Assembly: GCA_025774615.1 (NCBI GenBank)
Contig: JALGVQ010000176.1
Location: 1-5,711, forward strand
Length of the DNA stretch: 5,711 nt
Direction: 5' to 3'
Source of the DNA: a bacterium
Lineage (GTDB): Bacteria; Blakebacterota; Blakebacteria; Blakebacterales; Blakebacteraceae
A program made the translations under genes and the position numbers. Of this stretch, positions 933 to 4,991 are shown piece by piece. The notes below the pieces were generated by a model. It was not told the DNA's origin and ran no database searches. It saw nothing but the letters and a program-made list of their open reading frames with translations. Every line of letters begins with the position of its first letter. Position 1 is the stretch's first letter.

Positions 933-2900
933 CTATTCGTTCATGAAGACCGCCGGTACCCGGGGGCCGTTCTGGATGAAGTTCTTCATGCCGATGTCGT
1001 AGTCGATCGTCTGTCGGCATTTCCCGAAGGCCGCCGCCTCAACTTTCAGGCCATCGGTGAGCGATCTGATGAGTCCCTCCCTGATCGCTTCGACAAGTAT
1101 CGAATCGATCGTGAGTGACCGGTGCTCGATATCGATCGCGGGAAGTTCATCGGGCATGGTCATCGGCGCCGGGTCGACCGGTTCCAGGGTCAGCTCGCCG
1201 GCGATATGCCGGTTGATGAGAGCTCGGGCCGCGGCCAGGATGTCGTCGGCCGGTTCGCCTGTGGCCCAGCCCAGCCAGCAGGCTTCCTTCGCCCCTACCG
1301 GTTGACCGTTCCTCAGCATACCGAGGGCCGCTTCGAGACCGACCAGCCTGGGGAGTCTCTGCGTTCCTCCGTACCCGGGGATGATACCGAGATTCACCTC
1401 CGGCTGACCGAGCAGCAGCCGGTTGCCGACGACACGGGCATGACATGCCATCGCCAGCTCGGATCCTCCACCCAGAATGGGGCCATCGAGCGCGGCGACG
1501 ACCGGCTTCCGCAGCCCTGAAATGACATCGAGGACCTCATGCCCGCGCCGGCACTTGTCTATGGCCGCCTCGGGCGTCTCAAGAACCGCGAGTTCCATGA
1601 TGTCTGCACCTGCGATGGAACCGTCATAGCTTGTCAGCACCACTCCGCTGACGTCATCATCTGCTTCCAGCTCTTCGAAGATCGATCGCAGCTCCTGCAT
1701 CGTCCGCTCATTGAGCGCGTTCATCACCTCCGGGCGGCGGATCGTGACCGTCGCGATCCCCTCCTCCTTCTCCACGAGCAGATTTCTGAAAAAGGTGGGG
1801 AACTGCTTCTCTCTGATACTCTCCGGCACTTCAAAACCGGGATGGTCAGCGGCATAGGCCGTGCAGATCTCATGCACCCTGTCGACACCGTACTCCTCGA
1901 CCAGATCGAGCAGACCGCTCCTGAATCCGAGCGCGTTTTGTGACAACCAGTTGAAATCGGACAGATCACAGATCCCGTTATCCACCACGAACATGGTCCT
2001 GCCAAAGAGGACAGCCAATATCCGGTCGAGAACCTCCCGGCCGACCGTCTCATCAAAGTCGGGATTGCCGGGGGCATTCCGATCGTGCCACGGGGTGTTC
2101 GCCTGCTCATACAGGATCGCCGGTGGATCGAACCACTCACCTCCGGTATCGGCCTCTGCCATCAACACCTGACAATGCGCCGTCAGCAGGTTTCCCCCGG
2201 TCAGGTCGAGTACGTTGAACGGGCCCCCGCCACCGATGGCGGAGTTGACGATCTCGTCCACCTGTGCCGGTGTCGCCAGCCCTTCAGCAAAGATGCGCGC
2301 GGCCTCTGCGGTGTAATTGCAGAAGACATCATCAGCTGCGAAACAGGGTACATCGGCCGCGACGATGGGCACCTTCCCCAGTCTTCTCAGGGTCGCGATC
2401 ATCCGTTCACTCATCTGCTCATCACCTGAGAGGACCACCTCGATCGGCAGAGCCCGCCAGGCTGGAAAGAAAGGATGATTCACAAAGCAGCGGTCGGGGT
2501 GAACGGTTCCGGCAGCTATCACCGAGCGTGGTATCCCGGAAGTGGCGAAGCCGATCAGGCAGTCATCGCGAACGACACCTTCGAGGTCTTTCAGGATCGC
2601 CTGCTTGATGACAAGATCCTCGGTGGCCGCTTCAAGGACATAGTCGCAATCCGCCAGATCGTTCAGGTCGAGCGTTGAAACCAGCACCGTATTCATCCTG
2701 TCGACCCGCTTCTGGCTCAACTTCCCCCGGTCCAGCCCCTTGGCCATGTACCCGTTGATCCGGTCCATCCCGCCTGTCAGGGCATCCTCGCTGATATCGT
2801 GGAGGTAGAGCCGGTTCTCATCTGAGTCCGCCAGCGCGGAGATGAATCCGTAGGCCAGATCAGGCCCTATCGAACCGGAGCCGATTATTCCGACAATCAT
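933..2900 (-). CDS. Bifunctional 3-hydroxyacyl-CoA dehydrogenase / enoyl-CoA hydratase (HAD-ECH order)
   Basis: This 655-aa protein has two domains. Residues 1 to about 365 are an NAD-dependent 3-hydroxyacyl-CoA dehydrogenase: a Rossmann loop GSGSIG (7-12), an acidic LHD (33-35) at the end of beta-2, a TSG segment (S121), and the His-Glu dyad H142 and E154 with the usual 12-residue spacing. Residues about 372-655 are a crotonase: GADIME (431-436) for the oxyanion hole, GGGSELAMACHAR with E481, and GQPEVNLGIIPGYGGTQRL with E501. Both hydratase glutamates are present, so both activities look intact. The order is the reverse of FadB and the length matches the Metallosphaera-type crotonyl-CoA hydratase/3-hydroxybutyryl-CoA dehydrogenase; similar fusions occur in archaea and bacteria (from memory). 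It would hydrate 2-enoyl-CoA and oxidise the L-3-hydroxyacyl-CoA, here perhaps pimelyl-CoA derivatives. An open frame extends 35 codons upstream to 3005, but AAGGAG seven bases before ATG 2900 and the Rossmann start at MIVGIIGSG fix the start at 2900. Confidence 0.94.
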   Translation of the reverse strand: MIVGIIGSGSIGPDLAYGFISALADSDENRLYLHDISEDALTGGMDRINGYMAKGLDRGKLSQKRVDRMNTVLVSTLDLNDLADCDYVLEAATEDLVIKQAILKDLEGVVRDDCLIGFATSGIPRSVIAAGTVHPDRCFVNHPFFPAWRALPIEVVLSGDEQMSERMIATLRRLGKVPIVAADVPCFAADDVFCNYTAEAARIFAEGLATPAQVDEIVNSAIGGGGPFNVLDLTGGNLLTAHCQVLMAEADTGGEWFDPPAILYEQANTPWHDRNAPGNPDFDETVGREVLDRILAVLFGRTMFVVDNGICDLSDFNWLSQNALGFRSGLLDLVEEYGVDRVHEICTAYAADHPGFEVPESIREKQFPTFFRNLLVEKEEGIATVTIRRPEVMNALNERTMQELRSIFEELEADDDVSGVVLTSYDGSIAGADIMELAVLETPEAAIDKCRRGHEVLDVISGLRKPVVAALDGPILGGGSELAMACHARVVGNRLLLGQPEVNLGIIPGYGGTQRLPRLVGLEAALGMLRNGQPVGAKEACWLGWATGEPADDILAAARALINRHIAGELTLEPVDPAPMTMPDELPAIDIEHRSLTIDSILVEAIREGLIRSLTDGLKVEAAAFGKCRQTIDYDIGMKNFIQNGPRVPAVFMNE

Positions 2901-3344: not shown

Positions 3345-3977
3345 ATGGCTGAAATCAATACAGGCGAGAACAACAAGACCGGGACACGATCGGGTCCCAG
3401 ACTTGAACTGATCCTCACGTCGGCTGCCACACTGATGGCCCGTAATGGCTTCGGACAGACATCGATCCGGGATGTTGCCCGGGAAACCGGACTCAGCCTT
3501 GCCGGGATGTACTATTACTTCCAGAGTAAAGAGGACCTGCTCTACAAGATCCAGCACCGGACCTTTGCCTCCCTGCTCGAGGAACAGGAGGAGGTTGTCT
3601 CCGGGGGGAGGGACGCGAACGACCGGCTCGAACGCCTGATCCGCAACCACCTCTCCTTCTATACCCGGCACTTCAGTGAGATGAAGATCTGCACCTTCGA
3701 ACTCCACTCATTGACCGAAGACCGCTACCGGAACGTCGAAGAACTGCGGCGGCGATACTTCCGCATCGCTGCGGAGATCGTGGGTGAGATCATCGGCGGT
3801 GAAGGGGATTCCACAGAGAGAGAGGCTGAGGCACGCCACTACACCCTGTTCATCTTCGGTATGCTCAACTGGATATTCATGTGGTTCGACCCGGAGCGGG
3901 ACGCTCCGCTGGAGGACCTGAGTGACAGACTCATTCATCTCGCGCTGCATGGCCTGAGCGGATCTCGATCCGCATGA
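3345..3977 (+). CDS. TetR/AcrR-family transcriptional regulator
   Basis: This is a 210-aa protein of normal TetR length. Residues about 18-70 form the DNA-binding domain: a first helix (LELILTSAATLMARNGFGQ), then the helix-turn-helix TSIRDVARETGLSLAGMYYYF (39-59) and the KEDLL segment characteristic of the family. The C-terminal half is the ligand/dimer domain; HYTLFIFGMLNWIFMWF near its end resembles the NW...W pattern of TetR regulators of fatty acyl-CoA metabolism, so an acyl-CoA ligand is plausible (inference). Start choice: the frame is open to 3225, but the first 40 codons are non-family sequence lying in the repeat-rich region. ATG 3345 gives a normal N-terminus, although its ribosome site is weak (only GGA near 3338). 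It heads the rightward gene cluster and sits opposite the left operon, the usual place for a local repressor that controls itself and both arms. Confidence 0.92.
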   Translation: MAEINTGENNKTGTRSGPRLELILTSAATLMARNGFGQTSIRDVARETGLSLAGMYYYFQSKEDLLYKIQHRTFASLLEEQEEVVSGGRDANDRLERLIRNHLSFYTRHFSEMKICTFELHSLTEDRYRNVEELRRRYFRIAAEIVGEIIGGEGDSTEREAEARHYTLFIFGMLNWIFMWFDPERDAPLEDLSDRLIHLALHGLSGSRSA

Positions 3978-4031: not shown

Positions 4032-4991
4032 ATGACACTCTTCCCCTCGATACCAGCCGAAGAATTCGACTTTCAGGACATCCTCTATGAGAAGAAGGAT
4101 ATGGTCGCCACGATCACCCTCAATCGACCGCAGAACTACAATGCCTACGTCACCAATACCCTGAAGGAACTGATCACCGCTTTCACCGACTCCGCGAATG
4201 ACGATCAGGTCGGAGTGATCATCTACACCGGCGTCGGTGACAAGGCGTTCTGCACGGGAGGAGACGTCAAGGAATACGCCGAGGTCTACACTCAACAGCC
4301 TCGCGATTACTGGAAATACATGGGGCTCTTCTCAGGCTATATCGAGTCCATCATGAAGACCGGCAAGGTCACCATCGCCCGCCTGAACGGCATGGCGGTC
4401 GGCGGCGGCAACGAATCGCAGCTGGCCTGCGACCTTGCGGTGATGGCTGACGACACCTTCATCTCCCAGGTAGGCACCAGTGTGGGAAGCGTTGCCTGCG
4501 GTGGTGCCACACAGTGGCTGCCACTCCTGGTTGGTGACCGTCGTGCCCGCGAGATTCTTCTGCTCAATCAGCGTATCGACGCGCAGAAGGCGCTCGACTG
4601 GGGGCTCGTGAACAGAGTCGTACCGCGCGACCAGCTTGATGAAGCTGTTAATGAGATCGCTCAGATCGCCATCGACAAATTCCCCGAGTGCACCCGGTAT
4701 ACCAAGGCACAGATCAACTACTGGAAGGATCAGTCGTGGCATGGGACCATCGGGCACGCTCGTGACTGGCTGACTACTCACTTCACCTCCCTGGAACCGT
4801 ACGAGGGAATGACCGCATTCGTGGAAAAGCGGCCCGCGAGATATCGTGAACTGAGGGAGATGGCAGCCGAAGGGAAGAGCATCGAATTCCTGTGGGGACC
4901 GTACCGGCACACCTGTGGTGAGTGCGGCGCCAAGGGAATCCCGGCTGAATTCACCTGGTGCGGCGCCTGCGGAGCGAAGCTCGAAGAGTAA
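4032..4991 (+). CDS. BamA/BadI-like ring-opening acyl-CoA hydrolase (crotonase fold) with C-terminal zinc ribbon
   Basis: This is a 319-aa protein. Residues about 13-270 are a crotonase domain: ITLNRPQNYNAY (28-39), GDKAFCTGGDVKEYAEVY (69-86) for the oxyanion hole, and GGGNESQLACD (124-134) with E128. Where hydratases carry the second catalytic Glu (GQPE) it has QVGTSVGS (147-154), then GGATQWLPLLVG (157-168). These blocks recall 6-oxocyclohex-1-ene-1-carbonyl-CoA hydrolase (BamA/Oah), which opens the ring to 3-hydroxypimelyl-CoA. EGMTAFVEKR (258-267) recalls BadI and MenB. BamA proteins are about 375-380 aa with an insertion after the ...VVP strand that is absent here. The tail, CGECG (295-299) and CGACG (310-314), is a two-knuckle zinc ribbon (CxxC...CxxC). 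The Asp that BadI and MenB carry after GSV is Ala here. Related C-C hydrolase or lyase chemistry on another cyclic acyl-CoA is possible, so crotonase family is sure and exact substrate is not. It follows the TetR gene by 54 nt. Confidence 0.85.
   Translation: MTLFPSIPAEEFDFQDILYEKKDMVATITLNRPQNYNAYVTNTLKELITAFTDSANDDQVGVIIYTGVGDKAFCTGGDVKEYAEVYTQQPRDYWKYMGLFSGYIESIMKTGKVTIARLNGMAVGGGNESQLACDLAVMADDTFISQVGTSVGSVACGGATQWLPLLVGDRRAREILLLNQRIDAQKALDWGLVNRVVPRDQLDEAVNEIAQIAIDKFPECTRYTKAQINYWKDQSWHGTIGHARDWLTTHFTSLEPYEGMTAFVEKRPARYRELREMAAEGKSIEFLWGPYRHTCGECGAKGIPAEFTWCGACGAKLEE

Follow-up and report, generated by a model that had tools for sequence, protein, structure and literature searches.

The window analysed here, a stretch of 5,711 nucleotides, carries on its plus strand a gene of 319 codons plus stop (4032..4991) whose product, P0001, is a crotonase of the BamA/Oah clade that ends in a predicted zinc ribbon. 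A reading made from the sequence alone had described this open reading frame as a compact hydrolase with BamA-like blocks; the translation is exact, and the quoted blocks are present. Two parts of the protein deserve particular attention. The active-site stretch (residues 122-158, 4395..4505, plus strand), characterized through residue counts per group, contains a GGGNE motif with E128 together with QVGTSVGSVACGG, the latter at a site that has an Asp in BamA and in MenB/BadI. The C-terminal ribbon (residues 287-319, 4890..4988, plus strand) has cysteines that are invariant in 55 aligned sequences, is modeled with a predicted local distance difference test (pLDDT) score of 90-96 and gives weak matches to the DZR and Zn_Ribbon families. 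In a rooted tree the family of such tailed proteins is the sister of BamA/Oah, and it probably fills the Oah step of the class I (ATP-dependent) benzoyl-CoA pathway. This function is proposed from kinship, gene context and the apparent replacement of BamA, and the substrate and mechanism are inferred.

Kinship with BamA and the active site

Membership in the crotonase superfamily is evident from a score of 182 bits against PF00378, with ECH-type models the only ones found in Pfam. The BamA/Oah model TIGR03200 ranks highest in NCBIfam (190 bits), followed by MenB and BadI (169-183 bits); the protein falls far below all of their cut-offs (badI, 178 against 467.6 bits; menB, 169 against 342.7 bits). 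An AlphaFold2 model computed with the 55-sequence alignment as input has a mean pLDDT of 94.1, and its core superimposes on solved crotonases with Z scores up to 34.5. A family profile matched MenB and hydratases among solved structures, and neither this profile nor one of BamA returned an entry named Oah among the matches listed. A search of viral contigs recovered no relative, and a search of plasmids recovered only tail-less relatives (approximately 35-42% identity, BadI for example) and no canonical BamA. Contamination of a single metagenome-assembled genome (MAG) was considered and rejected, as the same protein is encoded in the related genomes G001 and G003. In G001, a genome of the same genus, the tailed gene (C280 192-1119; L011, L020) is interrupted near codons 155-158 by a frameshift, which may be an assembly error or mark a broken copy.

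A rooted tree was built from sequences cut upstream of the ribbon. It unites BamA with the tailed family (99/96), separate from BadI/MenB (100/99). Within this BamA/tailed clade the tailed family is monophyletic (90/85), and its sister, BamA, has a long branch. The comparison with BamA, BadI and MenB that the sequence-only reading had proposed thus places the window protein beside BamA and not among ordinary hydratases, and no characterized homologue bearing the same tail was found. That the protein marks a subfamily of ring-cleaving hydrolases of its own, as proposed there, has good support from the tree and from gene neighborhoods and genome contents typical of the benzoyl-CoA pathway, the function itself being a prediction from sequence. 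Shared with BamA are the FCTGG...EYAE block (E81, Y82), the GGxE glutamate, W236, W246 and a C-terminal extension, none of which occurs in BadI/MenB. The two families also take the same kind of place in operons beside Had, Dch and benzoyl-CoA reductase genes. The window protein differs from BamA, with 36% identity to the BamA L018, and the tailed family carries a Cys4 ribbon at its C-terminus.

The absence of the insertion found in BamA had been offered as a further mark of this subfamily. The window protein indeed lacks the roughly 50-residue insertion that follows VVP in BamA, but many tailed relatives possess one at the same site, of 30 residues in about half of clade I and 54 in Planctomycetes. 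These insertions are BamA-like in sequence and share a KKDGxFI...LD motif (WGLVNQVAPSVKKDGEFI...IDLAKLDEAV versus LGILTDIVPVLKKDGQFI...TDFSKLDATV in BamA). Because homologous insertions occur in tailed relatives, ‘compact’ fits the window protein but does not hold for the family as a whole; on sequence comparison, the window protein is the short end of a variable loop.

Residue E128 is the equivalent of crotonase Glu144, a position occupied by Val in BadI/MenB, and the position of crotonase Glu164 is Gly148 in every family member counted. Bicarbonate occupies the place of Glu164 in the bicarbonate-dependent MenB (PMC3637252). The Asp of the GS[VF]D loop (Asp163 of E. coli MenB) is not retained, the position being Ala or Pro in 59 of 59 bacterial-type tailed members and Ser in the 12 of the Archaeoglobus type. 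BadI and MenB resemble the tailed family in their crotonase fold and approximately 35-42% identity, and MenB also has Q-x-G at the Glu164 position; in contrast, they lack both an equivalent of E128 and the tail, belong to another clade and keep their own GS[VF]D Asp.

BamA/Oah catalyzes a 1,2-hydration followed by hydrolytic ring cleavage to 3-hydroxypimelyl-CoA (PMC5742626). By homology, the tailed enzymes would bind the thioester in the crotonase oxyanion hole, and Glu128 would activate a water molecule for addition to the 1-ene. A second water would attack the 6-oxo group, and the adjoining C-C bond would break via an enolate that the oxyanion hole holds, yielding 3-hydroxypimelyl-CoA, with a neighboring dehydrogenase/hydratase fusion and a thiolase completing β-oxidation. 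DmdD offers a parallel, as it performs two water additions in one crotonase active site with an essential Glu144 equivalent, but it hydrolyzes the thioester instead of opening a ring at a C-C bond, and its second Glu is retained (PMC3660561).

Gene neighborhoods and the apparent replacement of BamA

Open reading frames flanking the family genes were clustered, and cluster representatives were identified with NCBIfam. They include BcrB (299 bits), BcrC (300 bits), an activase, a thiolase, a CoA ligase, a Had-like alcohol dehydrogenase (TIGR03201 as best match, 238 bits) and the alpha subunit of 4-hydroxybenzoyl-CoA reductase (902 bits). Since the BcrB, BcrC and Had representatives score below their equivalog cut-offs, they are relatives of the model enzymes. 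Of the loci with at least 12 kb of sequence, 15 of 21 from clade I and 12 of 14 from clade II (27/35 together) have BcrB or BcrC close by, as against 0 of 15 from clade IIb. Neighbors of clade IIb genes are instead EthD-family genes and, in some loci, genes resembling phenylacetate-CoA ligase; its members L053, L058, L062, L066-L069, L072 and L079-L081 have no benzoyl-CoA reductase nearby. Clade IIb probably acts in another cyclic acyl-CoA pathway, and its contrast with the other clades serves as an internal control for the neighborhood association. In genome G055 the corresponding slot is filled by canonical BamA, in a cluster of thiolase, activases, BcrB, BcrC, short-chain dehydrogenase/reductase (SDR), Dch, BamA and Had genes (BcrC and the activases identified by eye).

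Canonical BamA is absent from 33 of the 34 genomes holding the tailed family. All 11 Archaeoglobi checked likewise possess the tailed form only and no canonical BamA; with two Archaeoglobi shared between these sets, 42 of 43 genomes lack it. Nor was it found in the complete chromosomes of Ferroglobus and of the records behind L034 and L033.

Ferroglobus placidus is a cultured archaeon that oxidizes benzoate and has a published genome (PMC3236036). Its locus runs from a benzoate-CoA ligase through BcrC-like, BcrB-like and activase genes to the tailed gene, which comes last. Locus tags are Ferp_1044 for the ligase and Ferp_1033-1034 for the 2-oxoacid:ferredoxin oxidoreductase (PMC6500515). Counting from both ends, we infer that the tailed gene is Ferp_1040; ‘Ferp1040’ was not found in the papers searched. 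Schmid et al. 2015 reportedly described a Thauera-type pathway in Ferroglobus with expression of the reductase, Dch and a dehydrogenase/hydratase fusion; no Oah gene is known to have been assigned in this organism. A Dch-like crotonase in the Ferroglobus locus (L134 2018-2773) scores 154 bits against a Dch cut-off of 292.5, so the Dch model, like that of BamA, may be narrower than the function it describes. The same locus encodes, at 8536-10237, a thiolase and, after it, a small DUF35-like zinc-ribbon protein, recognized by eye and without an NCBIfam match at the threshold used.

In the window, immediately upstream of the tailed gene lies a TetR-family regulator (3345..3977, plus strand; TetR_N and TetR_C_24 above gathering score), and downstream a second, Dch-like crotonase cut by the contig end (5044..5711, plus strand), which at 114 bits is below the TIGR03189 cut-off and is the best Dch-like match of its own genome. 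On the minus strand are a 3-hydroxyacyl-CoA dehydrogenase/enoyl-CoA hydratase fusion (933..2900; Pfam 3HCDH_N, 3HCDH and ECH_1) and a thiolase cut by the contig end (3..920; Thiolase_N, TIGR01930). The fusion places the dehydrogenase first, the reverse of the FadB order, as does one near the tailed gene of Ferroglobus (L134 6554-8536).

Elsewhere in this genome, contig C43 encodes BzdN (506 bits, cut-off 453.8), BzdO (691, cut-off 448.6) and BzdQ (431, cut-off 380.2), all above cut-off, along with an activase, a ferredoxin-like protein and a BzdV-like oxidoreductase. Contig C81 encodes Had (455 bits, cut-off 338.65) together with a CoA ligase and another set of reductase-like proteins. No protein of the genome reaches the BamA cut-off. 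The genome thus encodes a reductase, Had and a putative Dch but lacks a classical Oah, a gap that the tailed protein would most obviously fill. Within the second reductase-like cluster on C81, an ApbA/PanE (2-dehydropantoate 2-reductase) domain is fused to an HgdB/BcrB-like subunit (L111 10606-12732); similar open frames of 801-822 residues in the Gemmatimonadota genomes G060 and G061 suggest that this fusion recurs.

The C-terminal Cys4 ribbon

The sequence-only reading had noted a CxxC...CxxC tail after residue 294, and the protein does end in CGECG...CGACG, arranged as C295xxC298-x11-C310xxC313-G. Across the 55 aligned members, which are 41-83% identical to the window protein, C295, C298, P304, C310, C313 and G314 are invariant. 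Compared with the gene of the closest full-length homologue, the tail, like the core, differs mainly at third codon positions. These invariant residues and the codon-position bias together indicate that the tail is more than a chance extension. An origin by frameshift or read-through was rejected, the tail being conserved in many lineages with a normal codon pattern. In the model, its last two blocks have pLDDT values of 95 and 90, and short strands span residues 291-294 and 301-304.

Weak Pfam zinc-ribbon scores are usual for modules of approximately 25 residues. The tail of the window protein matches DZR weakly (17.1 bits, gathering score 27.3), as do 38 of the 55 aligned members; one archaeal tail reaches 27.2 bits against Zn_Ribbon_1 (gathering score 25), and zf-ChsH2 is matched weakly in one archaeal tail. 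A search of solved structures with the tail alone found no relative, and a text search of the literature yielded no description of a crotonase/zinc-ribbon fusion among the matches listed. A BamA model computed from 7 sequences (mean pLDDT 48) is too poor for the ribbon to be compared with the BamA C-terminus. The OB-fold DUF35/ChsH2 partners of thiolases likewise place a small Cys4 ribbon on a CoA-ester enzyme system; in the tailed family, however, there is no OB fold and the ribbon sits at the C-terminus of the enzyme itself.

As modeled, the Cys4 ribbon is a folded structural module. Presumably binding zinc, it may serve oligomer contacts, partner docking or substrate gating, as the sequence-only reading had suggested; most likely it is an interface, either in assembly of the oligomer or with another pathway enzyme. 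All of clade I, clade II and the Archaeoglobus type have the ribbon, whereas clade IIb has lost it on at least three occasions. Its retention in the reductase-associated clades suggests a contact specific to the reductase pathway, although the losses, all in one clade, are not independent of ancestry. A bolder proposal, which we hold only tentatively, is that this ribboned sister lineage of BamA performs the Oah step in a large part of the class I pathway beyond the classical model bacteria, archaea included, and that the ribbon docks the enzyme to a pathway partner so that the reactive 6-oxo-enoyl-CoA is handed on unreleased.

Alternative functions, distribution and significance

Several observations weigh against the Oah assignment. 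No enzyme of the tailed family is known to have been assayed. At 190 bits the window protein is far below the TIGR03200 equivalog cut-off of 464.45, and the Asp of the BamA SAPDGG loop is replaced by Ala or Cys in bacterial tailed proteins and by Ile or Val in the Archaeoglobus type. Genome G050 encodes both the tailed form and canonical BamA. Clade IIb, lacking bcr and so pointing to another pathway, means that the family is not uniform. Finally, the bcr/bzd and had genes of the window's own genome lie on other contigs (C43, C81) of a MAG that is 82% complete, so its lack of BamA alone is no proof.

That incompleteness would also allow BamA to have been missed and the tailed protein to be an ordinary enoyl-CoA or dienoyl-CoA hydratase of the same pathway, a role that its overall fold fits as well. 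We regard this as very unlikely: complete chromosomes too lack canonical BamA, Gly148 replaces crotonase Glu164 in all members counted, a better Dch candidate adjoins the tailed gene and the tree places the window protein with BamA. Somewhat less improbable, yet still unlikely, is a 2-ketocyclohexanecarboxyl-CoA hydrolase of the BadI type, which in the Rhodopseudomonas-type branch opens a saturated ring without a hydration step. The BadI profile, at 178 bits, falls little behind that of BamA, and several family members have nearby SDR genes whose products could take the part of BadH; the SDR representative, however, reaches 204 bits where the cut-off for BadH is 431, and the own genome encodes Had, the Thauera-type dehydrogenase, above cut-off. 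The tree strongly excludes the window protein from BadI/MenB, which have Val at the E128 position and whose Asp at 155 is Ala or Pro in the tailed family. Least credible is a catalytic ribbon, its metal or backbone reaching an active site, such as that of a neighboring subunit, to polarize the ketone. Invariant cysteines and the loss of the BamA loop Asp, which leaves one acid fewer in the active site, would suit such a role, but a structural zinc site is saturated by four cysteines, and the active-site residues are unchanged in those clade IIb relatives that have no tail. The predicted structure is a monomer, and the placement of the tail relative to the active sites of an oligomer lies outside the model.

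The Oah assignment, if correct, bears on how anaerobic aromatic degradation is surveyed, for which bamA is a standard marker (PMC3794298). Published bamA primers have 6 and 6 mismatches to the window gene, with medians of 7 and 6 for tailed genes and of 4 and 3 for the BamA genes tested. Since the curated BamA model rejects the tailed family and the primers mismatch it, marker surveys would miss such degraders in Gemmatimonadota, Chloroflexota, Planctomycetota, Acidobacteriota, Lokiarchaeota and Archaeoglobi. The tailed gene of Ferroglobus placidus is a direct candidate for the ring-opening gene of a cultured benzoate-oxidizing archaeon. This so far unlabeled, ribboned sister family of BamA is widespread and appears to replace BamA in many anaerobic aromatic-degrading bacteria and archaea.

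The sample comprised 60 genomes around that of the window, one genome per bacterial or archaeal species and a set of Archaeoglobaceae, and contains 71 distinct proteins ending in the ribbon. These occur among bacteria in Gemmatimonadota, Zixibacteria, Chloroflexota, Acidobacteriota, Bacillota, Planctomycetota, Armatimonadota and Melainabacteria, and among archaea in Lokiarchaeota, Thermoplasmata and Archaeoglobi. Close relatives without the ribbon number a handful, in Anaerolineales, one Planctomycete and one Bacteroidia; L061, first listed with them, has its ribbon in a shifted frame. A member of the Ardenticatenaceae (Chloroflexota) encodes, with no recognized pathway neighbors, a tailed protein of the Archaeoglobus type (L086 10001-10918), which may reflect horizontal transfer or misbinning.
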